From the NCBI RefSeq assembly GCF_029227915.1, contig NC_079879.1, positions 6,388,001-6,452,000 on the forward strand: a stretch of DNA of 64,000 nt, written 5' to 3'. Below the pieces are notes generated by a model that was given only the letters and a program-made list of their open reading frames with translations, did no database searches and was not told the DNA's origin. Positions 5,432-26,882 of the stretch are shown one piece after another. The stretch's first letter is position 1. Each line of letters begins with the position of its first letter. This DNA is from Hydractinia symbiolongicarpus (lineage: Eukaryota > Cnidaria > Hydrozoa > Anthoathecata > Hydractiniidae). A program made the position numbers and the translations under genes.

Positions 5432-7177
5432 ATACCGACCTCAAACACATGTTCGGGAAAGAATCAAAGCAGACCACGAACCCGGAGTGGATCGAGGACA
5501 TCCAGCACATATTTGACGAGAATGACGCGCAATATTTGGAAGATGGAAGTCGCACCAAGACGTGGCGATTCAATAAGAAGCTTAACCAACCGTTTACGGA
5601 GGCTATCATGCGAAAAATCATTCCCCACGTAGACATGCGCGTCAAGGTAGTCTACAATTTTAGCTGTGATATTTACCGAGGTGGTGGCGGTGTAGCCGAT
5701 TACCACAAGACCAAGAGCTCCAAGTCACTCTCAAGCATGGCGAAAATCGAAGCCTTCATGGAAGAATGCGAGATGACAGAACCATCGAGACCCTCGGGGC
5801 ATACGAAGGCAAAATAGTCTTCAAACATGTACAGGTCAAGATCATCTCCACGAGGGAGCCCTTACTTGGATGTGGACCTTTGCCGGACTGGCTGCGGTGC
5901 AAAAGGTGCATTTACGGCTTTGACGAAGAAGACGAAAGAACCGACAGCCTGTGCTTCTGGACATGCCTAGCGGTGCACTATCGGGGAGAGCGAAAGCAGC
6001 GGACCTAACATATTTATCCGAGCACACCCCGGTAAATGTCGCGGTTCATGACAGTTTCAATGAAAATCCAACATTCATCGAGCATCACGATCCTAAGGTA
6101 TTGGTTAAACAGTTCGTGGAGGAGCTGGAGAAAAGGCAGGCCCTAATCGTTGAAGAAGTGGAGCGAGTGTACCCAAGACCCGACGATTTTGACATGCTTC
6201 CATATAGATATCAAGACGCTTGTACGAAGAACGAGGCGTATGAGCTCCTGCAGACGGGGATGGTTGGTGGTCCCGCGATCGTCTTTTGCAGGTACCATGA
6301 GAGTGATGTAACAGGTATCAGATCTCATGTATACGACGAACTCCGCTCATGCAAAACCATTCTGGGCTATGACGCGAACATGCTCTACCCGAGCACATTG
6401 CTCCAAGATGTCCCGTGCGGGAAGGAAAAACTAATCACTATCGCTGTACCAAAATTAGCGGGACAATCGGCGGTATTAAGACGATGTATTCAAAGTGGCT
6501 CGCTCTTCGGGTTTGCGCAAGTTGATATAGAGGTACCCCTTGAGTTGTATGACAAATTCAATGAGATGTCCCCGCTATTTGTCGTGAATGAGATACCAAA
6601 CGATCAAATCCCTGGGCACATGCATGGGCTGGAAGTCATCGCTTTTCATCAGCTCCTCAGGTATACCCGAGGCAAACCCTTTGCATGGTTCCCAACAGAG
6701 ATTGCGGATGCACGAAGACAAGCTGATCAAGATCCATATAAGCGAATCGCGGGTGATACAGCCAAGTTAAAAGGTAATTCATTTTATGGCAAAATGATTA
6801 AGGATATTGCGAGACATGCAAACACCATGCTTACAAAAGACGAGGGGTATGTTGATAAAGCGATGAGATCTCCACACTTCGAGGATCTTGAAGAGATAGG
6901 TGATGGGTATGAGATTAGAGAGGACAAGCACAAGGCCAGTATAGATCGACCGTACCAATGTGGCATTGCAGTCTACCAGCTGGCTAAATTGTGGATGCTA
7001 GAGTTTTACTATGATTTCCTCGACAAGTATGTAGATCGTCGAGACTTTGAGTATGTGTACATGGATACCGATAGCGCGTATTTTGCCATCTCCGGAAAGG
7101 ATTTGCGAGAGGTCGTTAGGCCTGAACTACTCGACTACTTGTCTGCTAGGTGTAGACAACAACAACAAAAAACCAAT
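5428..7177 (+). pseudogene. polB: Family-B (protein-primed type) DNA polymerase, half A, broken
   Basis: The replicative polymerase of the element. The N-terminal part is spread over three frames (5,428-5,817; 5,766-6,008; 5,951 on) and includes a Cys block (KRCIYGFDEEDERTDSLCFW). The palm follows with motif A (GYDANMLYPS, about 6,367), motif B (KLKGNSFYGKM, about 6,765) and motif C (YMDTDSAYF, about 7,058). Between the linker ending near VYPRPDDFDML and the palm entry (VGGPAIVFCRYHE), most of the exonuclease region expected in this family seems absent. After RPELLDYL the frame runs directly into an HNH endonuclease at 7,178, and the polymerase C-terminus seen in half B is missing. Frameshifts, an internal deletion and the insertion make it non-functional as it stands. 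Confidence 0.85.
7139..7159 (+). promoter_or_regulatory. Stem-loop before HNH copy 1
   Basis: TTGTCTGC pairs with GTAGACAA (one G-U), loop of 5. It lies 18 bp before the HNH start codon. HNH copy 3 has a related hairpin at the same relative place. Confidence 0.5.
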
Positions 7178-7648
7178 ATGGAGGATATCAAGAGCTGTTC
7201 AAACTGTAAAAAACTTTTATTTTTGAATAATTTTAAGTACCAACGGAATGGCCAATGGACAAAATGGTGCATTAGATGCTTGAATAGGAAAAAATGCCAC
7301 CATCAAAAACGGTGTTGCAAGGAGTGTGACTTCGGTAGGTATCAGTATCAACTTATTTTGAACAGGATTCGCCGTGCTCTAAGACAAGAGAGAGAGATTT
7401 GCTCCACTGAATACTTGGAATGCGACATTACCTCATTCAAGGCGCACATTAAGGCTCGGTTCACGGAAGGTATGAATTGGGGGAACCAAGGGCAGTGGAA
7501 TTTCGATCACAAGGTGCCATTTAAACACAAAGAGAATGGTGAAAATCCCAGCTTGGAGACGCAGCTCGCCAAACTCCACTATATCAATATGCAACCAATG
7601 TGGGGGAGCGATAACAAGTCGAAAGGCCATCGATATATCACTAAGTAG
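7178..7648 (+). CDS. HNH endonuclease copy 1, fused in frame to polymerase
   Basis: A 156-aa protein starts at an internal ATG at 7,178 and is in frame with the truncated polymerase. Cys pairs come first (CSNCKKL, CIRCL, CHHQKRCCKEC), suggesting zinc binding. The C-terminal HNH core follows: WNFDHKVPF, then HYINMQPMW and KGHRYIT. HNH proteins of this layout occur in giant viruses and phages as mobile, homing-type endonucleases (established for the superfamily; the role here is inferred). A stem-loop at 7,139-7,159 and an ACAACAACAA leader precede the start, and a similar leader precedes copy 3. Residues of the HNH core look complete. It could be translated alone or as a polymerase fusion. Confidence 0.75.
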   Translation: MEDIKSCSNCKKLLFLNNFKYQRNGQWTKWCIRCLNRKKCHHQKRCCKECDFGRYQYQLILNRIRRALRQEREICSTEYLECDITSFKAHIKARFTEGMNWGNQGQWNFDHKVPFKHKENGENPSLETQLAKLHYINMQPMWGSDNKSKGHRYITK

Positions 7649-7668
7649 TTAGCGCTTTATCATAGTAG

Positions 7669-7695
7669 CAAAGGTGTAGTAGAGCCACACCTTTG
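7669..7695 (+). terminator. Boundary stem-loop after HNH copy 1
   Basis: CAAAGGTGT (7,669-7,677) pairs perfectly with ACACCTTTG (7,687-7,695), loop 9. It sits 20 bp after the HNH stop and just before the next gene, whose likely original ATG at 7,714 follows AATAA. The half-B equivalent at 18,359-18,388 has a different sequence. Confidence 0.7.
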
Positions 7696-8270
7696 TGCAT
7701 AAGGCTCGAATAAATGTTGGAATATTGTTGCTGATTGCTATACTCGTCCCATACATCTTGCTACTTGCTTGTTTCTATCGATACAGACGAGTAATAATAA
7801 AGATGTCTGAATTAGCCGAAATTTTTGATGTTGTTGATACTCCCGCAGAAGCGCTTGAGCAACGTGAAAAACCTATAGACAAGCGTCAAGCCCTGAAGGA
7901 TGCAATACGCAAAGGCAATTCCCACCTCTTGCCGAAAAATTGCACCGAAGCTTTCATAGACAAATCATCGGATGAAGTAATCGACAAGGTACATGTCGAT
8001 TTCATCCAACGCGAGCTCTAAGAGAAGGGCACAAAAACAGCCAAGGCACTATCAACCCACGCGATTAGCATGTACACCAAGGCTATAAGTAACGTAGTGA
8101 CTCTCGATAGTCCCGAAGGCTTGAGGCAAGATATCGAAGAGGATCCGATCATCAGGGATAGTATGGCCGACTTGGGGATTCTCGTGTACTCGGCTTTCGG
8201 TAAGCTATTGACACCTCTGCTTATTACTGCGCATACGATTAATCACCCCCACTCTCAACGTTCAAGTTAG
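7695..8270 (+). pseudogene. TM-anchored conserved Polinton protein, half A
   Basis: Homologous to 18,391-19,018. The N-terminus holds one hydrophobic segment (LLLIAILVPYILLLACF) followed by basic residues, and the body has a conserved QREKPIDKRQALKDA block. A TAA at 8,019-8,021 ends the frame after IQREL, and the rest (including DLGILVYSAFGKLLTPLL) reads on to 8,270 in another frame. The apparent original ATG at 7,714 is one base out of frame. A second in-frame ATG at 7,803 sits behind AATAATAAAG, so either a membrane-anchored protein or two adjacent genes is possible. Function unknown. Confidence 0.65.
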
Positions 8271-8303
8271 TTGAAGAACGAGATGATGAAGATCAAGAAA
8301 ACA

Positions 8304-8558
8304 ATGGGAAATAGTCTATCAAAGATACGATTGGACAATTATGAATTATATAAAAGAATAAACGGCGTGGCTACCACTTTATGTAAATTCCCGACCATGA
8401 GCTATTCGTCTTGGTGCGGCATGGTTAGGGACCTCGGTGTGCATGATTTAGAAATCCTGACTCCGCCAGCTGATCGCTTTCCAGCGCACGTGTGTATTTT
8501 AGAGAGGAGAGCATATAGGAACGTGAACGTATATACAGGTAGACGCCCCCCAAGGTAA
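8304..8558 (+). CDS. Predicted N-myristoylated protein MGNSLSK, half A
   Basis: An 84-aa protein if started at ATG 8,304, where the sequence begins MGNSLSK, a good eukaryotic N-myristoylation signal (Gly2, Ser6 and basic residue 7). The longer upstream start would bury this signal, and half B conserves the same start (18,978), so I prefer 8,304. A shared central block contains DLGVHD, then TPPA.RFP.HVC. The preceding gene overlaps or abuts it. By analogy with myristoylated proteins of other large DNA viruses it may attach to membrane or virion, but this is inference. The C-terminus differs from B. Confidence 0.6.
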   Translation: MGNSLSKIRLDNYELYKRINGVATTLCKFPTMSYSSWCGMVRDLGVHDLEILTPPADRFPAHVCILERRAYRNVNVYTGRRPPR

Positions 8559-8573
8559 GCTAGTGGGAAGTGA

Positions 8574-8600
8574 TTCTTATACGTCTTAGACGCATAAGAA
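8574..8600 (+). terminator. Boundary stem-loop before GRVA gene, half A
   Basis: TTCTTATACGTCT (8,574-8,586) pairs with AGACGCATAAGAA (8,588-8,600) with one mismatch. The next base is the A of the ATG at 8,601. Half B has an unrelated hairpin at the same site (19,279-19,302). Confidence 0.75.
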
Positions 8601-8942
8601 ATGAATGAGGAACCTAACCAAGTTATTACCAAGAAGAACGAGGGTCGTGTTGCTGCTGGGAAGAGACGTGCGGAATGGAATTGCAAGGACAAGCTGGAGA
8701 AGAAGAGGAACTTGGGCAAAAGTACTTCCCAAGAGAGTCAGGAACCTGCGGCAGGTTCCTCCAAGTCTATGGGCAGTGTATACATTCGTGGAGGCATTGT
8801 CGTACTTGCTTGTATGGCAGCAGGTGTCTACTTCCTTACGCGTAAGCAGACCGCGGCGACCCAGCAGCCCACCGAAACACCAAAACTATCGCCTGGCGGT
8901 TCCGGAGGGGCACGGGCGCCCCAGCTAGAGCCTACAGCCTAG
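8601..8942 (+). CDS. GRVA-motif basic protein with one TM segment, half A
   Basis: A 113-aa protein with an N-terminal basic block (GRVAAGKRRAEWNCKDK), a polar linker and one TM segment (GGIVVLACMAAGVYFLTRK, about residues 62-80), then a Pro/Gln-rich tail. The half-B homologue (19,305-19,661) keeps the GRVA-type basic motif and almost the whole TM segment. I recall similar GRVxxGKxLA motifs in proteins of other animal Polintons and related adintoviruses, where a minor virion or membrane role is suspected. The stem-loop 8,574-8,600 touches its start codon. The frame is intact. Confidence 0.6.
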   Translation: MNEEPNQVITKKNEGRVAAGKRRAEWNCKDKLEKKRNLGKSTSQESQEPAAGSSKSMGSVYIRGGIVVLACMAAGVYFLTRKQTAATQQPTETPKLSPGGSGGARAPQLEPTA

Positions 8943-8989
8943 CCCGATATTGACGCCATTTTTCACATGCGATAATCTATAATATAAAC
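8943..8989 (+). promoter_or_regulatory. Conserved AT-rich promoter-like block, half A
   Basis: The block TTTTTCACATGCGATAATCT followed by ATAATATAAAC ends at the ATG at 8,990. It recurs almost unchanged at 19,637-19,668 in half B although flanking sequence has diverged. Conservation and position suggest a promoter for the small 82-aa gene. Confidence 0.55.
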
Positions 8990-9243
8990 ATGAGTTCTAA
9001 TGTTACACCCCCGCAAAAAGAGATAATTGACGTTCTGTATGAGACATTCGTGGACCTTGGGTTCACATTTGCATATGCCATGCTTGGCAAGACGTTCCTC
9101 GGGATCTCGAGCCCAGTACCAAGCTTGATACCAGCGATGTAATGAAGATGATCGCTTATTTTTCAGCGGGACGGGGAAGTCGTGAGATGGCTGTATCAAA
9201 GGCCATCCCTTTGATTCCCGCGAGTATAGTCCCGAAGAAGTAA
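8990..9243 (+). pseudogene. Conserved 82-aa Polinton protein, half A, frameshifted
   Basis: Starts MSSNVTPPQKEIIDVLYE and matches the intact half-B copy at 19,669-19,917. A frameshift near 9,115-9,125 breaks the frame after GISSPVP, and the C-terminal half continues in another frame (DTSDVMKMIAYFSAGRGSREMA). It is mostly helical with a moderately hydrophobic middle (FTFAYAM). Function unknown. It is placed immediately before the packaging ATPase in both halves, which suggests a virion or packaging role. Confidence 0.65.
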
Positions 9244-9255
9244 GCGCATGCAAAG

Positions 9256-9284
9256 TTTGTGTCTGCCTAATAGACAGACACAAA
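9256..9284 (+). terminator. Boundary stem-loop before ATPase, half A
   Basis: TTTGTGTCTG (9,256-9,265) pairs perfectly with CAGACACAAA (9,275-9,284), loop 9. Next comes ACAATAAATG with the ATPase ATG at 9,298. The half-B counterpart (19,932-19,950) differs in sequence. Confidence 0.75.
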
Positions 9285-9297
9285 GGGGTTACAATAA

Positions 9298-9887
9298 ATG
9301 CTAAACATCGTGAAAGACCCGCATACAGCAATCTTCACGGGGCCTACATGTGTGGCAAGACTCAGCGTGTACTGGACCTACTGGAGAACGAGCACAAGCA
9401 CCATTTTCACAACATCGTGATCCTGTGTCCAACGATCTGGTGGAACAAAACTTATTTGGAGAGATCCTCGCTGTAGGAGGATGACTGCGTGTTTCTTATA
9501 GATCCCAAAGACCAGTTGTTTGATTGGATCGATCAATTCTCAAAGCGTCTAGCAGGGGATGACACTCTGTTCATCGTCGAAGATCTTATAGAAGACGAGA
9601 GCCTCGGCAGGAAGCGTCAACCTCTGCTCGAGCTGGCCATCAGTGGGAGACATAGAAAGCATAGCTTATGGTTGTTAACGCAGTCATACACGGCTTTAAC
9701 TAAAAATCTCCGTCGACAGAAGAAGCAGCTGTTCATATGGTACCCCCACGAGCGCAGCGATATGAAGCTAGTGGATGAAGAGACGAACATGATCTCCGAT
9801 TGGGAGTCGATCAAGAATCTGCTCGGGAAGTCGAAACATGCCTGCTTGTACATGAGATTAGAACACCCTCGGACCTGGAAATTTTGA
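9298..9887 (+). pseudogene. FtsK/HerA-type packaging ATPase, half A, broken
   Basis: The DNA-packaging motor ATPase of Polintons (established for the class). Walker A is damaged: FTGPT..CGK has lost part of a codon and so the frame. Walker B is visible as TLFIVEDLIEDES, followed by a conserved SGRHRKHSLWLLTQ segment that carries the sensor-like glutamine. A TAG interrupts the frame near 9,474. The last residues (LEHPRTWKF) are followed by a 45-bp insertion holding a hairpin. Compare half B, where the Walker A GPTSCGK is intact. Confidence 0.85.
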
Positions 9888-9902
9888 AATGACGCGGACA
9901 TC

Positions 9903-9924
9903 AGTTGTACCGCCGGGTACAACT
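9903..9924 (+). terminator. Boundary stem-loop after ATPase, half A
   Basis: AGTTGTACC (9,903-9,911) pairs perfectly with GGTACAACT (9,916-9,924), loop 4. It lies inside about 45 bp that are absent from the equivalent place in half B, so the hairpin seems to have been gained here (or lost in B). Confidence 0.65.
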
Positions 9925-9954
9925 AAAATTGGAGCATTTTGCCTTGACTTTCAA

Positions 9955-10161
9955 CTAAATAAATCGTGTATCGAAAAATTACGAGAGAAAGAGATCCGGA
10001 AATTGGAGGAAACAATTGAGGACTTGGAAGCGGGTCTCGAGGAAAGAAATTGGGAGCTGTATAGGATGAATCTGAGGGATAAATACAACAACCGGATCGC
10101 TTTAATCACCTGCGTCTCTTCGCTGGCTATCACCATGATCCACTATATGATGAAATATTAA
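9955..10161 (+). pseudogene. Coiled-coil/TM small protein, half A (start codon lost)
   Basis: Homologous to 20,586-20,795. Heptad-like E/K-rich helix (IRKLEETIEDLEAG), then a C-terminal TM segment (IALITCVSSLAITMIHYM) and a short tail ending MMKY. In half B the start is AAATAAATATGTCTTG; here the ATG and next codon are missing, so translation could only begin upstream in the read-through frame from 9,889. A tail-anchored membrane protein is the simplest reading. Function unknown. Confidence 0.6.
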
Positions 10162-10183
10162 GACCATTTCACGTCATGAAACA

Positions 10184-10204
10184 GGGGTCGTTAGTAATGA
10201 CCCC
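10184..10204 (+). terminator. Stem-loop after coiled-coil/TM gene, half A
   Basis: GGGGTCGTT pairs with AATGACCCC (one G-U), loop AGT. Located 22 bp after the stop codon. Confidence 0.7.
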
Positions 10205-10279
10205 CTTGGCAAAACTAAAAATCCTCATGATATCGGGAAGTACAAAATACGGCTTGGTGACGCTATTATTGATCTCCAA

Positions 10280-10303
10280 TAGGTACTTAGATCCAAGTAC
10301 CTA
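10280..10303. terminator. Stem-loop in spacer, half A
   Basis: TAGGTACTT (10,280-10,288) pairs perfectly with AAGTACCTA (10,295-10,303), loop 6. No gene directly abuts it; it may mark the end of a gene lost from this half. Confidence 0.6.
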
Positions 10304-10350
10304 CACCCAGACACAGTTTTACTGACGGAACCAGGAGCCACGTGTTCAAA

Positions 10351-10377
10351 ATATATGTCGGTGGCACCGACATATAT
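10351..10377. terminator. Stem-loop in spacer, half A
   Basis: ATATATGTCGGT (10,351-10,362) pairs perfectly over 12 bp with ACCGACATATAT (10,366-10,377), loop GGC. Confidence 0.7.
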
Positions 10378-10387
10378 CAACTGGGTA

Positions 10388-10408
10388 GTTCGCCCGCAGC
10401 GGCCGAAC
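10388..10408 (-). terminator. Stem-loop beyond integrase 3' end, half A
   Basis: GTTCGCCCG pairs with CGGCCGAAC (8 of 9), loop CAG. It lies 30 bp past the integrase stop; half B has a 10-bp hairpin of unrelated sequence at 21,409-21,433. Confidence 0.6.
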
Positions 10409-10437
10409 CGGTGAAATGACCATCCGACTCGAGAAAT

Positions 10438-11375: not shown

Positions 11376-12005
11376 TTAATAGGAGCTCCTGCTACGAGTA
11401 CGCTTATTTGTGATAAAGCGGTTGCCTTTTGCAATGTTCTCACTTGCCCACATTGGCTGAGTATTGGTGTAGTGCAATCTCCTACCAACTTCAACAAGCG
11501 ATGGAACATCTCCATTTTCTCGATAATGTAACGGCACCTTATGATCGATATGCCATTCTCCATAATTATCCCAGGTCATACCCACAGAAAACTGATCTTC
11601 GATATGTACCCGCAGCGTCGCGACATTGCACCCCAGATATACTTGGGAGCTTAGTTCCTTATTACCCTTTAGAGCCTTGCGGGCACGACATCGTACAACA
11701 GAAGCAAAATGTCCTGCAGGATCATGAATTTTACAGGTGGATCTCCGTTTTCCATGGTCGCAATACTGACTAACCTTGCAGTCTTTGCATTAGTATCTCA
11801 CCCTTTTATGAAGGCATATCTGACTACCCTTGCAGTCTTTACACCTTGATTTACGTTTTTCATGCGGGCATTTGTTACGTTCTTGATATGCTTTCACCCT
11901 GTCGAGGCATCTTATGCATTTTTTCGTCCGTTGCCCATCCCCCTTGATCCTGAAATTGCTTAAAGATAAAGAGTGATTACATTTCGAGCATTTGACATCT
12001 TCCAT
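11376..12005 (-). pseudogene. HNH endonuclease copy 3, at integrase N-terminus, half A
   Basis: Starts at 12,005 (MEDVKCSKC), shows CIRCLDRVKAYQERNKCPHEK and several C-x-H-x-K-R-x-C-type Cys/His units, and ends with an HNH core (GEWHIDHKVPLHYRENGD; HYTNTQPMW). The N-terminal and C-terminal parts are in different frames, with the break near 11,790. It has one more Cys/His unit than copies 1 and 2. Its leader, a hairpin at 12,016-12,042 plus ACAACAACAA, is like that of copy 1. It lies between candidate capsid and integrase and occupies the position of the integrase start. Catalytic residues look retained. Confidence 0.7.
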
Positions 12006-12015
12006 TTTTGTTGTT

Positions 12016-12042
12016 GTTGTGTCTACATTCAGCAGACACAAC
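12016..12042 (-). promoter_or_regulatory. Stem-loop before HNH copy 3
   Basis: GTTGTGTCT (12,016-12,024) pairs perfectly with AGACACAAC (12,034-12,042), loop 9. It lies 11 bp upstream of the HNH start on the minus strand and 14 bp beyond the capsid-gene stop. Confidence 0.7.
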
Positions 12043-12055
12043 CCTTGGCCACATC

Positions 12056-13291: not shown

Positions 13292-13362
13292 TGTCTTTAA
13301 TTCCTTGTTAAGATCTAGCTTAGATCCGTACTTTTATTAGTAGGGATTTGCGGGTTGAATAA
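13292..13362. promoter_or_regulatory. Divergent start region between capsid and coiled-coil genes
   Basis: 71 bp serving two divergent genes. It contains a small palindrome GATCTA-GCT-TAGATC at 13,312-13,326 and TTGAATAA directly before the plus-strand ATG. Confidence 0.45.
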
Positions 13363-14651: not shown

Positions 14652-14680
14652 GTCTAGTATGTTGACAAAACACATCAGAC
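14652..14680. terminator. Imperfect stem-loop between convergent genes, half A
   Basis: GTCTAGTATGTT can pair with AACACATCAGAC at 9 to 10 of 12 positions (including G-U). It lies exactly between the plus gene ending at 14,648 and the minus gene ending at 14,681. Confidence 0.4.
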
Positions 14681-15828: not shown

Positions 15829-15844
15829 CTTTTCTTAAAGAAAC

Positions 15845-16227
15845 ATGAAGCAACTGTATATCACTGATATCGAAAAGCCTACGATATTTGAGGACTACCT
15901 GGTGCAAGACACGAGAATCACATTAAAGTCCATCAGCATTCGACCTACGTGGCTGAATCTCTTCAGTAACAACGACTGAGACTTGTTTGCCCCCAGCTAG
16001 ATGAAGATGATTGCCTGCTGGATTGGAAAAAATCCAAGATACTAGCCATGCTTCCTACCAAAAAACCAAACGCATGGGGAGACATGCTTACGTGGAGTTT
16101 TGATAACCCTGTATATCTCTCCCTGAAGGGCTCGACAGACAGGCTGGAGTTTATGCTCACGGATGAGCATCACCACGATAAGAATGTTTCGTTCCTGGGA
16201 ATTACTATGCACTTACTGATAGAATAA
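15845..16227 (+). pseudogene. Candidate minor capsid/penton-like protein, half A, internal deletion
   Basis: Begins MKQLYITDIEKPTIFEDYL and ends ITMHLLIE, as in half B (24,367-25,038). About 290 bp of the middle are missing after TWLNLFSNN, and the C-terminal part (CPQLDEDDCLLDW onward) is out of frame. The family reading is described at the half-B copy. The stop is directly followed by the next ATG (GAATAAATG). Confidence 0.6.
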
Positions 16228-16750: not shown

Positions 16751-16777
16751 GTCTAGTGTGTTGATTACATACTAGAT
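16751..16777. terminator. Stem-loop between convergent genes, half A
   Basis: GTCTAGTGTGT pairs with ACATACTAGAT (two G-U), loop TGATT. Here sequence as well as position is kept in half B (25,708-25,734). Confidence 0.7.
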
Positions 16778-17817: not shown

Positions 17818-17840
17818 TTTGTGAAGTGGTGCTTCGCAAA
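17818..17840 (+). terminator. Stem-loop between polymerase and HNH copy 2, half B
   Basis: TTTGTGAAG (17,818-17,826) pairs with CTTCGCAAA (17,832-17,840), one G-U, loop TGGTG. It lies 11 bp before the HNH ATG (17,852). Confidence 0.7.
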
Positions 17841-17851
17841 AAAGCAACAAG

Positions 17852-18348
17852 ATGGAGGATGTTAAAAAATGTACGAAATGTAAGCGAGCCCAACCACTAG
17901 AACACTTCAAGATTCAGGTGTATGGTCAAGGTAAAAGCCAGCGAACAAAAAGGTGTATTAAATGCCTCGATGTGTATAAGGCGTCACACGAACGAACCAA
18001 ATGCCTACATCAAAAACGGAGACGCCATTGCAAGATATGCGATTTCCCTGGGTATCAGTATAAACTTATTCTGAACAGGATTCGCGATGCTCTAAGATAT
18101 GACACGGAAATTAGTTCCACGGAGTACCTGGGGTGTGTATCTACACATTTATTGGTCACATCCAAGATCAATTCAGGGACGGGATGAGCTGGAACAACAG
18201 GGGCAGTGGCAATTTGGTACCACTCAAGTATAGGGAGAATGGAGAATAACCCAGCGAGGAGGTGCAACTCGAGAGGCTTCATTACACAAACATGCAGCCG
18301 ATGTGGGTCGAGGATAATCAAAAGAAGGGCCATCGATATATAACCTAG
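17852..18348 (+). pseudogene. HNH endonuclease copy 2, after polymerase, half B, HNH core damaged
   Basis: Begins MEDVKKCTKCKRAQPLEHF with Cys pairs CIKCL, CLHQKRRRHCKIC, then YQYKLILNRIRDALR and STEYLGC as in copy 1. A frameshift near 18,150 and a small deletion remove the catalytic DHK motif (copy 1 FDHKVPF; here only VPLKY remains), and a stop precedes the HYTNMQPMW tail. Unlike copies 1 and 3 it does not interrupt another gene but follows the polymerase stop. Inactive by inspection. Confidence 0.75.
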
Positions 18349-18358: not shown

Positions 18359-18388
18359 GTTTTGTGTGCTTGATCCAGTACACAAAAC
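18359..18388 (+). terminator. Boundary stem-loop before TM-anchored gene, half B
   Basis: GTTTTGTGT (18,359-18,367) pairs perfectly with ACACAAAAC (18,380-18,388), loop 12, ending 2 bp before the ATG at 18,391. The half-A counterpart (7,669-7,695) has another sequence. Confidence 0.75.
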
Positions 18389-18390
18389 AA

Positions 18391-19250: not shown

Positions 19251-19278
19251 TGATCAAGATCACGGGTTTGGAGGTGCT

Positions 19279-19302
19279 TTTGTAAGTCTCATGACTTACA
19301 AG
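19279..19302 (+). terminator. Boundary stem-loop before GRVA gene, half B
   Basis: TTGTAAGTC pairs perfectly with GACTTACAA, loop TCAT, with a G-U extension. The ATG at 19,305 follows 2 bp later. Sequence is unrelated to the half-A hairpin at 8,574-8,600. Confidence 0.75.
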
Positions 19303-19304
19303 AA

Positions 19305-19661
19305 ATGGACGAAGTTCAACCACAAGAAGTAACAGTCATAACAAAGCCAGTAAAGCACCCAGGGAGAGTCGCGCAAGGTCACAAATTGGCGGCACTGATT
19401 AAGAAGAGGAAGGAACAAGATCTGAAGCAACAAGAGGGTGCTGTAGAATCTACAGTCAAAACCTCTTCTGGAGGCACTTCTATACAGTCAGGCAGTGTAT
19501 ACATTGGTGGAGGCCTTGTCGTACTTGCTTGCATGGCAGCAGGTGTCTACTACGTTACGCGTAAGCAGCCTGCAGTGCCGAAACACGTGCACCAGAGCAG
19601 CCTCAGCGAGAATCTACAGCCCATCCCGATACCAACTTTTTTCACATGCGATAATCTATAA
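19305..19661 (+). CDS. GRVA-motif basic protein with one TM segment, half B
   Basis: A 118-aa protein with intact frame. Basic motif KHPGRVAQGHKLAALIKKRK near residue 17-40, polar linker, TM segment GGGLVVLACMAAGVYYVTRK (about residues 67-86) and a Pro-rich tail whose last codons overlap the promoter-like block of the next gene. The linker and tail differ from half A, while the basic motif and TM segment are conserved, so those two parts are probably the functional ones. Role unknown; minor virion or membrane protein is a reasonable guess. Confidence 0.6.
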   Translation: MDEVQPQEVTVITKPVKHPGRVAQGHKLAALIKKRKEQDLKQQEGAVESTVKTSSGGTSIQSGSVYIGGGLVVLACMAAGVYYVTRKQPAVPKHVHQSSLSENLQPIPIPTFFTCDNL

Positions 19662-19668: not shown

Positions 19669-19917
19669 ATGAGTTCTAATGTGACCCCCAAAGAGAAGAA
19701 GATAATCGACATGCTGTACGAGAGTGTCATGGACCTCGGATTCACGTTCGCTTACATGGCTGGCAAAAAAGTCCTGGGCATTACGAGCCCCAGCACCAAG
19801 CTGGATACCAGCGACGTGATGAAGATGATCGCTTATTATTCAGCTGGACGCGCTAGCCGTGAGATGGCCGTCTCCAAAGGGTGGATTCCCGCCTCCATAG
19901 TACCAAAGCCCAAGTAA
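19669..19917 (+). CDS. Conserved 82-aa Polinton protein, half B
   Basis: An intact frame starting MSSNVTPKEKKIIDMLYE at 19,669. A longer upstream reading exists, but half A and the promoter block support this ATG. Two helical parts surround FTFAYMAGKKVLGI, followed by DVMKMIAYYSAGRASREMAV and a Pro/Lys tail. No known domain recognised. It lies between the GRVA/TM gene and the packaging ATPase in both halves. Confidence 0.65.
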   Translation: MSSNVTPKEKKIIDMLYESVMDLGFTFAYMAGKKVLGITSPSTKLDTSDVMKMIAYYSAGRASREMAVSKGWIPASIVPKPK

Positions 19918-19931
19918 GTACATCCAAGGTT

Positions 19932-19950
19932 TCTGTCTTCCCAAGGCAGA
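19932..19950 (+). terminator. Boundary stem-loop before ATPase, half B
   Basis: TCTGTCTT pairs with AAGGCAGA (one G-U), loop CCC, followed by TAGAATAAAT and the ATG at 19,961. Half A has a different, longer hairpin here. Confidence 0.55.
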
Positions 19951-19960
19951 TAGAATAAAT

Positions 19961-20583
19961 ATGACTCTCAATGTGGTCCTTCAACCACATACCGCGATTT
20001 TTACAGGGCCCACAAGCTGCGGGAAAATACAGCGAGTCCTCGACATCCTGGAGAATGAGTATAAGGGTCACTTTTATTACATCATCATCCTCTGCCCCAC
20101 CATCCGCTGGAATAAGACCTACCTCGATAGAGCATCGCTTTGGAAAGATGACTACGTATTCCTGATAGACCCCAAGGATCAGCTGTTCGAATGGATCGAG
20201 CAACTATCAAAGCTCCTAGCAGGGGGGACACTTTGTTTATCATTGACGATATTATAGCCGATGAATCTCTTGATAAAACTCGTGGGGCGTTTCTGGAACT
20301 AGCTGTTTCAGGTAGGCATAGGAATCATAGCTTGTGGTTGCTAACACAAAGATATAAGAAGATCCCAATAACGGTAAGAGACCAAATGAAACAGCTTTTT
20401 GTTTGGTATCCGAAGAATCGAAAGGAGCTCGAGCTCATTCATGAAGAGAACGATGTAATTTCGAGTAGGGAAGAAATTTCCATTATTAAGGTTCAGCTCA
20501 AGAAGTCGAAACATGCCTGCCTTTGGATCAAGCTTGAGCACCCCAGAAATTGGAGCATTTTGCCTCGATTTTCAACTAAATAA
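19961..20583 (+). pseudogene. FtsK/HerA-type packaging ATPase, half B, one frameshift
   Basis: Walker A is intact (FTGPTSCGK, about residue 16-24). Walker B is LFIIDDIIADES, followed by SGRHRNHSLWLLTQ and a conserved C-terminus (KKSKHACLWIKLEHP) ending FSTK. A single-base loss near 20,215-20,225 (after KLLAG) separates the two halves of the protein; otherwise it is full length for Polinton ATPases (about 200 residues). It drives genome packaging in the class. The stop overlaps the AAATAAAT preceding the next start. Confidence 0.88.
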
Positions 20584-20585
20584 AT

Positions 20586-20795: not shown

Positions 20796-20832
20796 GACCC
20801 GGGTGTTACGGCGCTAGAAGATTAAGTCGCAG

Positions 20833-20858
20833 TTTTGTGGTTTATCAAATCCACAAAA
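20833..20858 (+). terminator. Stem-loop after coiled-coil/TM gene, half B
   Basis: TTTTGTGG (20,833-20,840) pairs with CCACAAAA (20,851-20,858); TTT/AAA can extend it with a bulge. It lies 38 bp after the stop. Confidence 0.65.
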
Positions 20859-20914
20859 AACACGAGCACCGTCCTCGCAACACAATCCCCCGATCAAAAA
20901 CCTGTAAGATAAAA

Positions 20915-21349: not shown

Positions 21350-21356
21350 GTCACAT

Positions 21357-21385
21357 GTTTTGTGAGTTATTAAAGCCACAAAAAC
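21357..21385 (+). terminator. Stem-loop after half-B-specific gene
   Basis: TTTTGTG pairs with CACAAAA, extendable with one bulge (TGTTTTGTG / CACAAAAACA). It starts 8 bp after the stop codon. Confidence 0.6.
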
Positions 21386-21408
21386 AACACCTATAAATAT
21401 CAAGTGAG

Positions 21409-21433
21409 CAAGTCCCCCACAGCGGGGGACTTG
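21409..21433 (-). terminator. Stem-loop beyond integrase 3' end, half B
   Basis: CAAGTCCCCC (21,409-21,418) pairs perfectly with GGGGGACTTG (21,424-21,433), loop ACAGC. It lies 28 bp past the integrase stop on the minus strand. Confidence 0.75.
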
Positions 21434-21460
21434 ATGAAATGACAATCTGGCTCGAGAAAT

Positions 21461-22428
21461 TTACCACTCTTTAACATGTTCCGGAGGTATTTCAACGTCC
21501 TCTGGTATTAGCATCAACTCCTCCGCAACAAAGCTTCGATCAGGCCCATCTGCCAAATAGTACAAGAGAAGTGTACCAGTCACAATACAATCGAGTCTAT
21601 ACGTCTTTTTGCTCAACCAAGCGTCCGTTGCATGTCTTTTCGAATCACCGTGCTCTTCCCCAGGCCGAAGGAGGTAAAGATAGAGACCGTCATCAGGTAG
21701 AGGCTTTTCTTCATGCTTTTCTTCACCTTGCGGCACCTCCTTGAGCTTGATCGCTTTAGAGGGTTTCGTGCCAATCATGGCGGTCTTGGTGTTGTTCAAA
21801 CTTTTCACGATAGTGTAGAAGTGTTTGACCCATGTACTACTCTGTTCATCACTGACCAACTCTTGCGCATCTTGAGGTTTGAAGAGTCTCTCCGCAAGCA
21901 CCTTGTTATACGATTCGACGAATGCCGTGAAAGTGTCTTTATCTCGACACCTTTGCATTTTAGCAGCTTGCTCACGGCAGACTTGAACTCGGAGCCGTTG
22001 TCGCATTGGAATATACTCGGATATCGTAAAGGTCCGGCCTTGTATATGTCCCTGAGCATTTCCGCAACCTCGCTAGCCTTTTTGGTTCTCAATGGTTTCG
22101 CTACCTTGTACCTCGAAGCCACATCAATGTCTGTGAGGATAAACTTGTACGTGCTATCGTGGGGCATATAGAGCAAATCAAATTGGTGCATTTCATTAGG
22201 CTTTGTGATGATGAAATGCGGATAATTGATGCGCTTGGGGGCTTTGATATGTCTAAGCCAGAGCAGTTGACGAGTCAGCCAGTGAGTAACTCTCTTTTTA
22301 GAGAGACTACTCTGCTCGGAGAGTACTTTAATGGCTTTTCGACCAGTCCAGAGATGTTCCGGAGTGTAGTAGATTTGGTTTAGTTTTTCGGCTTCTTCAG
22401 CTGTAACAACATGCTTTACTTTTGACAT
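21461..22428 (-). pseudogene. int: Retroviral-type (DDE) integrase, half B, one frameshift
   Basis: Starts at 22,428 (MSKVKHVVTAEEAEKLNQI), with the N-terminal WTGRKAIKVLSEQ helix region, catalytic regions HQFDLLYMPHD and IFQCDNGSEF, then, after a frame change and likely small deletion near 21,960, FTAFVESYNKVLAERLF (carrying the third acidic residue) and a C-terminal module ending PPEHVKEW. The N-terminus is complete here, unlike half A where an HNH gene occupies it. The start codon lies in a hairpin (22,420-22,448) whose loop region carries ATAATAAAC. Confidence 0.85.
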
Positions 22429-22448
22429 GTTTATTATACATGTCAAAA
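22420..22448 (-). promoter_or_regulatory. Stem-loop containing integrase start codon, half B
   Basis: TTTTGACATGT (22,420-22,430) pairs perfectly over 11 bp with ACATGTCAAAA (22,438-22,448), loop TTATTAT. The integrase ATG (minus strand, 22,428-22,426) is inside the stem. Confidence 0.75.
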
Positions 22449-22457
22449 ACGTTATTC

Positions 22458-23429: not shown

Positions 23430-24349
23430 ACTGGGTACTTACTGATGAGTATCTTGTTCGTGAAATTCATGACACTCCCGATATGAAGGCTCATGTTGCT
23501 AGGAATCATGTAGGCTCCATGAGCAACCGAGAAGTCGACCTTGGACCGTGCATACTTGAGCACATTTTGGAACCGCCTGATTTCCTCACCCGTGTCACTA
23601 GGTCGGAGGATCAGCTCTTCAAAGGTCGTCAAGTAGAGGCGCTGCGCATCGATCGAACTGCCTTGATTACCGATGATGTTGGACCTCGCATTGGCTTGGC
23701 TCTGAAGTATGAGGTAAGCGTAAAATCTTACGCTTTGGAAAAGTTTCTCTATACCAATACGAGTGAGACCTTGAGAGGCTTCGAGAATCCATCGACTCCA
23801 TGAATCTTCATCGAAATAACTAGACCCGCTGTCTTTACGAATAGCTTGCCAGCTACTGAAGAGAGTCTCGTTCCTCCACTTGCTCTCGCTGTCGCTTACC
23901 CCACAATCACGTGCTAATTGCTGGAATTTTTGCATGTTGAAAGGGTTGTTGAGACGTCGGAACCATTCGGATCCTGATAGAGAAATTTCGAGATCTTGAA
24001 GAATTTTACGAATCTGGAAGTACACGTGAAAACGGTAAACGGAGCGAACAAGATGCGAGGATGTGGTTAGATGCTGCATAGAGATACCACAAGCTGAAGT
24101 TGCGCAGTAGGTAGAGAAATTGAGTTGAGTTGACCAGAGGCTGAAAGGGTGGCTTTGCCAGGTATTCAACACCGCACCAGAGTGGAACTCGTAGTCGACA
24201 AAATTGTTGAGGAATTTCACCATGAATTAGGACCCCTTCGCATCAATCACGATGTTCTGCGTTGCGAGATCATCACCCTTGAGTCTCTCGAGATAGCGCC
24301 TATGAGTAGGGGCATACTTTGCTTTGGGGTTATACGAGTAAATGCTCAT
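23411..24349 (-). pseudogene. Conserved Polinton virion-candidate protein, half B
   Basis: Starts at 24,349 (MSIYSYNPKAKYAPTHRRY). A TAA replaces a serine codon shortly after IVIDAKGS (about 24,225), and the rest reads from 24,223 to 23,411 without interruption: HSGAVLNTWQSHPFSLWSTQ, CATSACGISMQHL, SWQAIRKDSGSSYFDEDSW, IIGNQGSSIDAQRLYL, MIPSNMSLHIGSVMNF. The C-terminal TM segment seen in half A is lost at the 23,440 deletion junction. This copy shows that the family is about 370 residues long. Role unknown, presumably structural. Confidence 0.6.
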
Positions 24350-24366
24350 CGTTTCTTTTAAAAAAC

Positions 24367-25038
24367 ATGAAGCAGCTGTATATAACAGATATCGATAACC
24401 CTACGATATTTAAGGACCACCTAGGCCAGGACACGATGATAGCTCTGAAATCCATTAGCATTCGACCTACGTGGCTGAACCTATACGCAAACGGTGGTTT
24501 TGCTATCCGCAGGGTAGGACCTGATCAGAGGGTTACTCGAATCGAGATCATGAACGGTTTGTACAAGATAGAGGATTTAGCAACCATCGTCAACAAGCAG
24601 GCAGAGGGCAAGATCGAGATCTTCGTGTTGAGTAACGGACTCCGCAGGCTCTGCGTCAGCGACGGGTACACGGTGATGTTTGGTCGACATTTGCATGAAC
24701 TCTTGGGCTTGCCCTTCGATCCCAGTAAAAAATATTATACTAAGGGCAATTATGATAGCTTCTACAAGACTAACGTCTACCAGCGGCTGAGACTTGTTTG
24801 CTCCCAGCTGGATGAAGATGATTGCCTGCTTAACGGAAAAAAATCCAAGATACTGGCCATGTTTCCTACCAAAAAGCTAAACGTATGGGGAGACATGCTT
24901 ACGTGGAGTTTTGACACTCCTGTATACCTTCCCTTGAAAGGCTCCACCGATCGTCTCGAGTTCATGTTGACGGATGAGCATCACTACGATAAGAACGTTT
25001 CGTTCGTGGGCATAACCATGCACTTCCTTATAGAATAA
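24367..25038 (+). CDS. Candidate minor capsid/penton-like protein, half B
   Basis: A 223-aa intact frame from ATG 24,367 (MKQLYITDIDNPTIF). Features: IALKSISIRPTWLNLYANGG, then RIEIMNGLYKIEDLATIVNK, KIEIFVLSNGLRRLCVSDGY, a HELLGLPFD turn, and a C-terminal WSFDTPVYLPLKG...LTDEHHYDKNVSFVGITM. Alternating short hydrophobic strands suggest an all-beta fold. I recall a common cnidarian Polinton family with the same order (KSIS.x.TW, GSYxIxDIxxY, xIYVxxxxNRxxxxIxxGY, LxGxxK), which I believe to be a penton/minor-capsid candidate. The assignment is inference. Half A has lost the middle of this gene. Confidence 0.6.
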   Translation: MKQLYITDIDNPTIFKDHLGQDTMIALKSISIRPTWLNLYANGGFAIRRVGPDQRVTRIEIMNGLYKIEDLATIVNKQAEGKIEIFVLSNGLRRLCVSDGYTVMFGRHLHELLGLPFDPSKKYYTKGNYDSFYKTNVYQRLRLVCSQLDEDDCLLNGKKSKILAMFPTKKLNVWGDMLTWSFDTPVYLPLKGSTDRLEFMLTDEHHYDKNVSFVGITMHFLIE

Positions 25039-25041
25039 TAA

Positions 25042-25650
25042 ATGACTGACATTGCTAAGCTTTATCCGAGCTTACCGAGTGCACCCCCGGAGGGTATGGA
25101 GAAGGATAGTTCACGAGTCTACAGACTAGGGAAAATTGAAGAAGTCGAACAATACTTGCGAGCCGAGATTAAAGAGCGTGACAAGCTCGCTAAGAAGTTT
25201 AAGATGCATGGTACCTGGGTTAGGTTCTGCGTCCAAGGGTTACTAGCGGTAAGTGTGATAACTTCAGGCGTTGGTATTGGTAGTATACTCTCGGGAATCG
25301 GCGTACCACTAGTTGTGGCTATGGGTGGGATCACTATCGCCGTAGGGTTAGGCCAGGCGGGTCTGCGGAACGCCGGAAAGAGACTGGGAGATAAGAGTAA
25401 GTAGCATGAAAGTATCAGACTACTAGCAGAGACCAAGTTGAGCTCTATCGTTGACTTGATATCGAAAGCTGTAGAGAATGGTGTGATTAGCGACCACGAG
25501 TTCAGCTTAATTATGCAGGAAAAACAAAAGTATATGGTGCTGAAGGGGCAGATCAGACAGCGTGTCAAGAAGATCGTGGACAGTATTAATGAGCAGGAAC
25601 GTATGCAGCTGGTAGCACAGGGCAGACAGGAGGCGAAGGATGTGCTTTAA
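25042..25650 (+). pseudogene. LYPxLPSAP hydrophobic protein, half B, one in-frame TAG
   Basis: Starts MTDIAKLYPSLPSAPPEG, followed by a basic/acidic helix (EEVEQYLRAEIKERDKLAKK), two hydrophobic stretches rich in Gly, Val and Ile (GLLAVSVITSGVGIGSILSG; VPLVVAMGGITIAVGLGQAG) and, after an in-frame TAG at 25,402-25,404, a C-terminal helical domain (SKAVENGVISDHEFSLIMQE). The frame is otherwise the same on both sides of the stop. I recall the LYP-LP-AP opening and the ISDxEFxLxxxE ending from cnidarian Polintons; the function is unknown, probably membrane-associated. Confidence 0.65.
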
Positions 25651-25707
25651 TAGAGATCTGCGCAGTATGTCAGCGATACTTAGAGGAGCCACCAGCGTAT
25701 TCATAAG

Positions 25708-25734
25708 GTCTAGTGTGTTGATTACATACTAGAC
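25708..25734. terminator. Stem-loop between convergent genes, half B
   Basis: GTCTAGTGTGT (25,708-25,718) pairs with ACATACTAGAC (25,724-25,734), one G-U, loop TGATT. It lies between the plus gene ending at 25,650 and the minus gene ending at 25,738. Confidence 0.75.
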
Positions 25735-25737
25735 GAT

Positions 25738-26008
25738 TTAGAGTACTTCTCCAGTATCATAGTCGATGATGTGGTCACCATCATATGCAACACGTCGCTG
25801 CTTTTTGGAGAGCCTTCTCGAGTATTGCTCGAGATTTTTCTGCCAAGCGATAGCACAACAAGGTTCGCAATAAGGGCCGTCTGTCTGTGTCGAAGCGTCC
25901 TTATACTTGGTATTAGCAGATCGCTTTGAGTAGGTCGGCCTTATTCATAGTTGAGTAGTTACGAACCTTTAGTGCTTTCGCTTCCGTTTTCAGTTCATTA
26001 ACGTTCAT
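25738..26008 (-). pseudogene. SAP/HeH-like DNA-binding protein with CxxC motif, frameshifted
   Basis: Starts at 26,008: MNVNELKTEAKALKVRNYST, then NKADLLKAI, a short helix-extended-helix (SAP-like) segment typical of DNA or RNA binding. After a one-base frame change near 25,920 the protein continues with a DASTQTD linker, a YCEPCCAIAWQK Cys cluster and a basic segment (SRRLSKKQRRVAYDGD), ending DTGEVL. Roughly 85-90 residues. The family resembles SAP-plus-Cys proteins I recall from cnidarian Polintons. A 3' fragment remains at the end of half A (16,781). Confidence 0.6.
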
Positions 26009-26012
26009 GTTT

Positions 26013-26046
26013 GTTTTGGTATGCTGGATCAGCAACATACCAAAAC
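26013..26046 (-). terminator. Boundary stem-loop between two minus-strand genes
   Basis: GTTTTGGTATG (26,013-26,023) pairs perfectly with CATACCAAAAC (26,036-26,046); CTG/CAG adds an inner helix. It starts 10 bp after the stop of the upstream gene and ends 5 bp before the next start codon. Confidence 0.8.
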
Positions 26047-26055
26047 CTCTCACAT

Positions 26056-26670
26056 CTAGTCTAGTACGACGAAGGATTCGTCATCGTCGTCGAAATCGCT
26101 AAGGTAGCGGGAGCCATAAAACTCGAGAACCTTATACTTACACTCCTCCAAGTAGGTTTGCATGTAGTAATTTGAACCTTGCCTGTAGATGCCGTATAGC
26201 TTGATGATGGCCTTGCACTCGCAGCTTTGTTTCAGTGGTACTTTTTTGGAATGGAAGTCGGTTTTGATTTTGCCATCCCACTCCTTCACCTTGGTGGTGA
26301 TGTATTTCCCTTTTTTCACAGGTGGGGTGGTGAAGCAATGACCCTCCAAGGACTCTACCTTGGTCAGGATACTCTCATACTTCTCTAACCACTCGGGGTG
26401 GTTATAGATGTCGAATGACATGGTAAGAGAGCAGCCCTCATCGTAACGCGAGGCACCATTGGAATAGCGCTTTGTAGGTGTCTTGATCAATAGAGGGGAT
26501 AGCTTGTTGTCATTATTATAGCCAATGATGAAGCGTCCATCTTTCTCCTTGTTTGCTGAAATAGGATCGCTTAGCACGATATTTTCAACGTTTACATCTT
26601 CGATATTTAGCGGAGTCGCTTTGGCGTAAAAGTCTCTTGAGTTAACATTCTTCTAACCGAATTTGAACAT
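26056..26670 (-). pseudogene. Putative viral DNA-binding protein (DUF5871-like, tentative), early stop
   Basis: The likely start is the ATG at 26,670-26,668 behind AAATAAAAGG, but codon 6 is TAG (26,655-26,653), so the rest (about 195 residues) would need readthrough or another start. Features: NNDNKLSPLLIKTPTKRYS, then GCSLTMSFDIYNHPEWLEKY, a KVKEWDGKIKTDF segment and an acidic end (SDFDDDDESFVVLD). The phrase of conserved N-x-xPLxIxTP followed by a Leu-rich SFD strand resembles DUF5871-type proteins of giant viruses, possibly single-strand DNA binding; this is memory-based. It is only in half B; half A ends before it. Confidence 0.5.
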
Positions 26671-26698
26671 CCTTTTATTTTGTGATAAGGGAGTTCAA

Positions 26699-26854
26699 CT
26701 AGGGTTTGGTACAGGGACAGCTTCCGCCATTATACGTAATGTGCTCTTGGTAACAGTACCAGCATAGCATCTTACCTTTTATGAAGAACCTCCGTCCACA
26801 GGAGCATCTGTCGTACCCATCGAGCACGCGTTCACACTCATCGCATTGTTCCAT
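26699..26854 (-). CDS. 51-aa Cys-rich putative zinc-binding protein
   Basis: A short intact frame from ATG 26,854 to TAG 26,699-26,701. Cys/His pattern: CDEC near residue 4, CSC at 17-19, CWYC at 31-34, a single His at 38 and CPC near the C-terminus, which could bind two zinc ions. The start codon follows AGATA and lies 1 bp from a perfect 11-bp stem-loop. It is too short to be called by length filters, but the Cys spacing, position between two hairpin-bounded genes and start motif argue it is real. No half-A counterpart. Function unknown. Confidence 0.6.
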   Translation of the reverse strand: MEQCDECERVLDGYDRCSCGRRFFIKGKMLCWYCYQEHITYNGGSCPCTKP

Positions 26855-26855
26855 T

Positions 26856-26882
26856 TATCTTACAACACGGGGTTGTAAGATA
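26856..26882 (-). terminator. Boundary stem-loop between repeat-protein gene and Cys-rich gene
   Basis: TATCTTACAAC (26,856-26,866) pairs perfectly with GTTGTAAGATA (26,872-26,882), loop ACGGG. It is 24 bp after one stop and 1 bp before the next start. Confidence 0.8.

Follow-up and report, generated by a model that had tools for sequence, protein, structure and literature searches.

Mimivirus is said to follow a hairpin rule, which Byrne et al. reportedly described in 2009. As passages of the papers cited here have it, mimivirus transcripts are polyadenylated at palindromes, with a viral RNase III and a viral poly(A) polymerase (PMC4402537), and the hairpin measure for this virus is a stem of 13 or more and a loop of 5 or less, in a source giving thresholds for several viruses (PMC8557863). 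A hairpin signal ends 16 genes of the Sputnik virophage, and the CroV late promoter precedes all mavirus genes (PMC6723459); transpovirons have a terminator hairpin (PMC7031253); and in Noumeavirus and Melbournevirus (Marseilleviridae) palindromes are enriched between open reading frames (ORFs) and are linked to the preceding stop codon, whichever gene follows (PMC5413956). Giant viruses are also the subject of a review (PMC11814242). Here we analysed a Polinton of the hydrozoan Hydractinia symbiolongicarpus, which lies in a window of 64,000 nucleotides (the whole stretch of DNA under analysis, C5:6,388,001-6,452,000) and has, like its copies in the same genome, stem-loops at many gene boundaries.

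These stems occupy defined positions, obey the orientation of the neighbouring genes, are enriched over shuffled sequence and evolve as paired arms (see below). We read them, with a probability of roughly 0.7, as shape-recognised 3'-end signals of Polinton mRNAs. Stem-loop signals of this kind were previously known from amoeba giant viruses and virophages; here they would belong to animal Polintons, in which the arms evolve as pairs across dozens of copies. Among the literature matches listed, no title or abstract opening describes stem-loops at the ends of Polinton genes, and passages of two further papers (PMC11071308 and PMC11464507) have nothing on stems.

Stem-loops at gene junctions

The element is bracketed by terminal inverted repeats (about 4,854-5,171 on the left and 27,395-27,650 on the right; 77-96% complementary), and within this one pair lie two diverged sets of the same genes, halves A and B, whose aligned protein pieces are 69-79% identical in amino acids. 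The genes are named TM, U1, GRVA, SSN, ATP (ATPase), CC, CC2, INT (integrase), MCP and mCP (capsid), P11, P12 and P14 to P19; the polymerase gene is one that we take to be such from its motifs. An ATPase search of the genome (480.9 Mb, 76 contigs) gave 40 scored matches out of 674 candidates, the window's own included, with 75-100% identity. Of the 39 other copies, 20 were analysed within 10 kb of surrounding sequence and the other 19 as short stretches of 900 nt; places in the genome are given L numbers. Gene order was mostly kept among copies. The junction survey comprised halves A and B together with the 20 longer copies (22 sets), and considered canonical neighbours with gaps of at most 1.5 kb and 15-nt margins; perfect stems were scanned as stems of at least 8 bp with loops of 3-15.

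Perfect stems occurred in 20 of 34 convergent gaps (shuffled 1.7), 45 of 150 tandem gaps (shuffled 4.2) and 2 of 24 divergent gaps (shuffled 0.8), at densities of 3.65, 1.56 and 0.36 per kb, respectively. Coding DNA, 108 kb in all, held 32 against 16.8 expected, i.e., 0.30 per kb. By a looser score, stems were present in 32 of 34 convergent (12.6 shuffled) and 82 of 150 tandem gaps (35.8 shuffled). The density test separated convergent from divergent gaps (P 1.7e-5) and intergenic from coding DNA (P 1.7e-22), both P values being too small because the copies are related. A preliminary description of the window had proposed testing the stems for enrichment between genes with shuffled controls, and they are concentrated in the gaps; its broader claim that they sit at almost every gene boundary holds for convergent and many tandem junctions but fails for divergent ones and for four tandem junctions that had none in these sets.

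Those four were TM-U1 (0/12 gaps with a perfect stem), GRVA-SSN (0/17), P11-P12 (0/9) and P14-P15 (0/8). The tandem class was therefore mixed, with a stem in 8 of 9 CC-CC2 gaps and in all three HNH-MCP gaps. Absence at P11-P12, P14-P15 and the divergent mCP-P14 says little, because there is almost no space; GRVA-SSN (median 75 nt) and the divergent MCP-P11 junction (105 nt, 0/9) are roomier, make the better tests and had no perfect stem. In L011 the GRVA gene ends in a stem overlapping its last bases. Among the 19 short stretches, a stem preceded the ATPase in 17 of the 18 reaching it and GRVA in 14 of 17, and the junction from the polymerase to the next gene, readable in three copies, had a scored stem in each. 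In sum, stems stand where units of one or two genes end. As a separate observation, the 900-nt stretch L041 has a 42-bp near-perfect palindrome within its GRVA gene (positions 325-412).

Position of the stems relative to stop codons

With TM, GRVA and P14 left out, 93 of 158 stops were followed by a stem at a distance of at most 60 nt, whereas shuffling these stretches gave 5.7; behind the stops of TM, GRVA and P14, which are genes inside units, the count was 0 of 45. Median distances from stop to stem (130 nt scanned downstream of the stop) were 0 nt for mCP (stem at 9/10 ends), 3 nt for P16 (5/5), 8 nt for the ATPase (11/21), 12.5 nt for U1 (12/16), 13 nt for SSN (26/33), 27 nt for the integrase (19/19), 37 nt for CC (11/15) and 44.5 nt for P15 (4/4). 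The mCP-P12 gap has little besides the stem between its two stop codons. A start signal would favour divergent junctions and avoid convergent ones; the opposite was seen, which argues that the stems mark 3' ends. In the junction gaps 80 of the 88 perfect stems measured 8-12 bp and the other eight reached 13 bp, while the Pithovirus stem measure (10 or more) was reached by 40, loop length not counted.

Two other 3'-end signals were considered and rejected. AATAAA or ATTAAA stood within 70 nt of only one of 47 convergent stops (INT, mCP, P16, P15, CC2), where shuffling predicted 1.7, so that the host cleavage and polyadenylation signal shows no excess there; at tandem ends the motif belongs to the start, AATAAA overlapping the next start at 25 of 33 SSN ends. 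A bacterial rho-independent terminator would have a G+C-rich stem with a run of T behind it; judged by the T run, the stems do not fit, since 5 T in succession were found within 15 nt behind only 6 of 75 stems (+ tandem junctions).

Conservation of shape and turnover of sequence

Changes in the stem before the ATPase were counted with one stem per copy. Forty-one copies were considered, 36 listed and 34 used: L016, L017, L022, L035 (which has a stem but was lost through a misplaced start) and L044 were dropped, as were L010 and L033, below score 14. By parsimony on a tree of the flanking coding sequence, 33 of 91 inferred changes swapped one Watson-Crick pair for another. When the arms of 26 distinct ATPase stems were dealt anew, pairing was 0.50 (maximum 0.64 of 2,000) as against 0.86 observed, and for the stem before GRVA 0.63 (maximum 0.77) as against 0.89; this test includes a few non-orthologous stems, from L022 (an insertion at the ATPase junction) and L041 (one in coding sequence). 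The covariation score of 18 distinct ATPase stems was 0.316, compared with 0.126 (standard deviation 0.018) in shuffles and at most 0.053 when the arms were slid by 1-3 columns.

These paired changes between arms bear out the selection on stem shape that had been proposed. The accompanying statement, that stems at equivalent boundaries of halves A and B keep their shape with unrelated sequence, needs correction in its second part: before the ATPase, the stem of half A can be recognised as a homologue of that of half B, and the two co-vary through paired substitutions, and hence are not unrelated. Folded sense RNA should tolerate G.U more than A.C on the sense strand, and sense G.T exceeded A.C at tandem junctions (83 vs 58, P 0.04, distinct stems); the figures were 87 vs 93 in coding DNA and 21 vs 22 at convergent junctions.

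Organization of the element

The preliminary list of 19 stems was accurate in that every coordinate carries a stem-loop: 13 are perfect, with 8-12 bp and loops of 3-15, and six (8,574; 10,184; 16,751; 17,818; 19,932; 25,708) have one or two mismatches or wobbles. Weaker additional stems lie at 14,652, 21,358 and 26,663. Between 4,880 and 27,670 the element has 22 perfect stems of at least 8 bp, where 30 dinucleotide shuffles gave a mean of 3.8 and a maximum of 8, and 15 of at least 9 bp (shuffled 0.9, maximum 3). As we read the gene map, 13 of these perfect stems are at gene boundaries and nine within genes. The density, about 0.97 perfect stems per kb, is little above the 0.62 and 0.69 of the A+T-rich host flanks (3 and 25 stems, unshuffled), so that the position of the stems stands out more than their number.

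Polinton/Maverick traits of the element are the terminal inverted repeats, an rve integrase, an A32-like ATPase and capsid genes, the capsid match being below the Pfam cut-off; frameshifts and stops break many of the genes. The features of the window are as follows, with the strand where one applies:

4854-5171: left terminal inverted repeat, pairs with 27,395-27,650
5924-7138 (+): gene, half A; 69% identical to the half B fragment, no Pfam match, named from motifs
7178-7648 (+): HNH/endonuclease VII-like gene, half A; its own PHROG match is of unknown function only, window homologues match PHROGs HNH endonuclease and endonuclease VII
7669-7695: stem-loop behind the HNH stop, 9 bp (stem scan)
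8574-8600: stem-loop U1/GRVA, half A, 12 bp with 1 mismatch; other copies also have stems at this junction
8601-8942 (+): GRVA gene, half A (ORF)
9256-9284: stem-loop after the SSN stop, before the ATPase, half A (stem scan, multi-copy comparison)
9299-9887 (+): packaging ATPase, half A, broken; Pox_A32 weak, E 0.0029, below cut-off (half B is over it)
9903-9924: stem-loop behind the ATPase, 9 bp (stem scan); other copies have stems there
10184-10204: stem-loop behind the CC gene (stem scan)
10280-10303: stem-loop in the convergent gap, 9 bp; recurs in L012, L018, L023, L025
10351-10377: stem-loop in the convergent gap ahead of the integrase end, 12 bp; 15-bp relatives in L012, L021, L023
10438-11575 (-): rve integrase, half A, broken; N-terminal part aligned to half B, C-terminal part by tblastn
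11376-12010 (-): HNH/endonuclease VII-like gene between integrase and capsid genes; PHROGs endonuclease VII, E 5.9e-9
12016-12042: stem-loop between the capsid gene end and the HNH start, 9 bp; same in L021, L024
12056-13333 (-): major capsid protein region, half A, broken; Capsid_N E 0.00059, under the Pfam cut-off
13334-13362: divergent capsid/P11 junction without a perfect stem (0/9 copies; looser score 4/9, shuffled 1.8)
14652-14680: decayed stem-loop filling the convergent P12/minor capsid gap; scored stem in 11/12 copies (shuffled 2.7), perfect in 3/12
15834-15846: divergent minor capsid/P14 junction, almost no space; without a perfect stem in A or B, perfect in 1/9 copies
16752-16776: stem-loop, convergent P15/P16 junction, half A (stem scan)
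17818-17840: stem-loop between the polymerase end and HNH, half B (stem scan)
17852-18340: HNH/endonuclease VII-like gene
18359-18388: stem-loop between HNH and TM, half B (stem scan)
19278-19303: stem-loop between U1 and GRVA, half B (stem scan)
19305-19661 (+): GRVA gene, half B (ORF)
19669-19917 (+): SSN gene, half B; TATAATATAAAC motif ahead, no stem ahead
19931-19955: stem-loop between SSN and ATPase, half B, 11 bp with 2 defects (stem scan, multi-copy comparison)
19961-20583 (+): packaging ATPase, half B, broken; Pox_A32 E 1.2e-7
20833-20858: stem-loop between CC and CC2, half B; recurs in other copies
21358-21383: weaker stem-loop behind the CC2 stop, half B, absent from the preliminary list
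21409-21433: stem-loop behind the integrase stop (convergent gap), 10 bp (stem scan)
21461-22428 (-): rve integrase, half B, broken; Pfam rve E 1.2e-9
22420-22448: stem-loop between the capsid gene end and the integrase start, 11 bp; overlaps the integrase start codon
25708-25734: stem-loop, convergent P15/P16 junction, half B (stem scan)
26013-26046: stem-loop between the P17 end and the P16 start, 11-14 bp (stem scan)
26663-26698: weaker stem-loop between the P18 end and P17 (stem scan)
26856-26882: stem-loop between the P19 end and the P18 start, 11 bp (stem scan)
27395-27650: right terminal inverted repeat, pairs with the left repeat

Several stems stand together in the gap ahead of the integrase end, forming arrays of 3-5 that differ from one another and reach 15 bp in some cases (window 10161-10437; L012 4382-4538; L023 3777-4067). 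Among the 12 window proteins scanned in Pfam, neither an RNase III domain nor one of a poly(A) polymerase was found; Rfam at gathering thresholds gave 0 matches within the window. P19 (window 26906-27346, minus strand) has a DUF4116 domain (E 4.6e-16), a domain frequent in giant viruses and amoebae. Outside the element, a 564-aa open frame at window 2940-4634 reads as a short-period repeat and is probably not a gene. No relatives from outside this genome were found in the viral contigs scanned, for which the search patterns were narrow.

Start motifs

An ATAAATG-type start was present at 17 of 18 SSN genes, 9 of 9 INT, 8 of 8 P11, 10 of 11 CC, 6 of 7 P15 and 19 of 28 ATPase genes. It was less frequent at CC2 (3/5), TM (3/9) and GRVA (3/19), was found at the single P18 (1/1), and was missing from HNH, P14 and mCP (0/7 each). 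MCP had none at its assigned start (0/12), and AATAAA stood at most 3 nt from an ATG further upstream in 8 of 9 MCP-P11 gaps. Inside coding segments 19 of 2,208 ATGs carry this context. Since the motif also occurs at divergent starts, it belongs there to the start and not to a poly(A) signal of an upstream gene. In the window, AATAAATG and TATAATATAAACATG start motifs lie at 13334-13362 and 8943-8989, and such motifs are strongly enriched at several Polinton starts, divergent ones included; they are promoter candidates. We take the AATAAATG-type or ATAAATG start to resemble the poxvirus late TAAATG start.

HNH genes at the junctions

Across copies, HNH/endonuclease VII-like genes turn up at different junctions and on either strand (window 7178-7648, 11376-12010 and 17852-18340; L018, L019, L021, L024, L042 and L047), as mobile genes would. 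Where one lies between SSN and the ATPase (L019, L021, L042, L047), a stem was present on both sides in all four, and L018 has a stem behind its HNH gene. Often, not always, an HNH gene thus sits at a junction in keeping with a single stem for each unit.

A second Polinton lineage with VLTF3

The giant-virus late transcription factor VLTF3 (PF04947) gave 23 matches in the genome, where a single gene may account for more than one as separate pieces, and 0 in 14 control genomes. At the two places examined (L056 5303-6019 and L057 5023-5808) it adjoins the integrase and is convergent with it; its neighbours in L057 are genes for an rve integrase and a minor capsid protein and a P12-like gene. These neighbours are homologous to the window family (identity 37% for the integrase, from L056, 46% for mCP and 38% for P12), so that VLTF3 is carried there by a second, sister Polinton lineage. 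Perfect stems occur elsewhere in L056 (5) and L057 (6). A further piece, L058 (3,480 nt around C7:4353278-4353757), is an endogenous giant-virus fragment with a capsid gene of the type of nucleocytoplasmic large DNA viruses (NCLDV; PF04451, E 5.8e-14) adjoining a DNA topoisomerase II fragment (E 4.5e-21); no stems were found within 60 nt at the three ends examined, which gives no support for L058 as a helper. The stem rule looks lineage-specific, not general to the genome or its Polintons, because the ends examined in both the sister lineage (see below) and the giant-virus piece are without stems. Looked for in other Polintons of this genome, as had been proposed, the arrangement recurred across the 20 further copies of the family but not at the ends examined in the sister lineage.

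According to passages of the sources, VLTF3 was as of 2024 not detectable outside Nucleocytoviricota (PMC11253617), and eukaryotes carry NCLDV core genes, among them VLTF3 in a sea anemone, Exaiptasia (PMC5294986). A VLTF3-bearing Polinton lineage may, as a guess, explain the Exaiptasia copies.

Interpretation of the stem-loops

If the stems are 3'-end signals, one of them, sometimes several, would close each transcription unit, typically a few tens of bases past the stop codon. Recognition would be by shape, leaving the arms free to change while still pairing, and transcripts would end in or at the stem, either by termination or by cleavage and then tailing. Between tail-to-tail genes one palindrome could serve both strands; between head-to-tail genes the next gene would begin close behind the stem, several at a AATAAATG-type start. 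We infer that the RNA ends at the stems and that an enzyme, of the host or viral, reads them.

Several results weigh against this interpretation. By the looser score divergent gaps have stems in 11 of 24 (6.7 shuffled), so that absence there is relative; tandem versus divergent density alone gives P 0.027; and the divergent mCP-P14 gap, with a median of 48 nt including 30 nt of margins, leaves little room for a stem. Sixty-five of the 158 ends examined are without a stem within 60 nt, perhaps in part because copies are decayed. No stem stands between GRVA and HNH in L018 or between HNH and SSN in L015, and a stem follows at most 60 nt behind only 7 of 16 HNH ends. When the 70 nt downstream of stops are folded, the result is only moderately extreme (median z -2.4 for SSN, -0.5 for CC). 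The count of swapped pairs at the ATPase stem (33/91) has no null model, two of five covariation measures (both-side changes and further pair types) were not above shuffles, and inferred G.T and A.C events at that stem were about equal (9 vs 8). In the sister lineage a stem lay within 60 nt at none of eight gene ends (L056 and L057, ends set by eye).

The palindromes might instead act as DNA, forming hairpins or cruciforms in recombination or in an attC-like cassette exchange that swaps genes at boundaries. A kept shape with changing sequence fits DNA recognition as well, HNH/endonuclease genes do lie at different junctions among copies, and the strand counts given above are mixed between tandem junctions and ATPase events; yet this proposal gives no reason for the near-absence of stems at divergent, TM-U1 and GRVA-SSN boundaries or for the tight link to stop codons, and we hold it to be improbable. 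Action at 5' ends, as a leader or promoter controlling translation or initiation of the following gene, would suit the many tandem stems 0-15 nt ahead of the next start codon, but convergent gaps, which have no start, are the richest and divergent gaps, with two starts, are near background, so that we give it only a very small chance.

An equally small chance goes to a neutral origin, in which palindromes without function perfect themselves because strand-displacement replication switches template and copies one arm onto the other. It would explain perfect arms with sequence turnover, and also why coding DNA has about twice the shuffled number of stems, but such a process would ignore gene orientation and distance to the stop codon. 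Even less probable are dispersed mobile palindromes, MITE-like or double-hairpin elements, landing in non-coding gaps: some stems are alike between junctions, e.g., the TTTTGTGG-CCACAAAA types at CC-CC2 and CC2-integrase, but those before the ATPase and before GRVA are each orthologous among copies and differ from one another, and a preference of insertion for 3' ends is left unexplained.

A 3'-end signal recognised by shape is thus our preferred reading, and the stems may work like those of the hairpin rule. Of the hairpin-rule reading given in the preliminary description, shape selection and association with gene 3' ends are upheld, while transcript ends at the stems, giant-virus machinery and a common origin with virophages are putative parts of it. 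Most stems fall short of the mimivirus length and the sister lineage has none at the eight ends examined; membership in the rule is putative, in part because of that shortfall in length. Stem-set 3' ends, AATAAATG-type starts and VLTF3 in the sister lineage together allow a further suggestion, which we regard as tentative and rather unlikely: animal Polintons would be transcribed by machinery of giant-virus type and not by the host, either as virophage-like parasites of an unrecognised animal giant virus or through ancestral viral transcription that was kept. The stems offer a handle on how Polintons make messages, and they divide the Polintons of this genome into a stem-bearing and a VLTF3-bearing lineage. 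They also open to test the question of whether transcription of animal Polintons relies on RNA polymerase II of the host or on a viral system.

Comparison with known systems

With other Polintons/Mavericks and with adintoviruses the element has in common the terminal inverted repeats, rve integrase, A32-like ATPase and capsid genes. It resembles mimivirus in having a palindrome at gene ends that keeps its shape, not its sequence, and that stands in place of a sequence polyadenylation signal, but its stems are mostly of 8-12 bp and its setting is not that of an amoeba virus factory. Like Sputnik and the transpovirons, it is a small parasite genome with a stem-loop at gene ends, and Sputnik is a relative of Polintons; their helper giant virus, however, is known and shares the signal, while none is known for the Polinton described here. 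Noumeavirus and Melbournevirus are large amoeba viruses with an RNase III homologue and transcription machinery of their own, in which they differ from the Polinton; the likeness to these Marseilleviridae lies in intergenic palindromes tied to the upstream stop codon, in viruses that encode no poly(A) polymerase.

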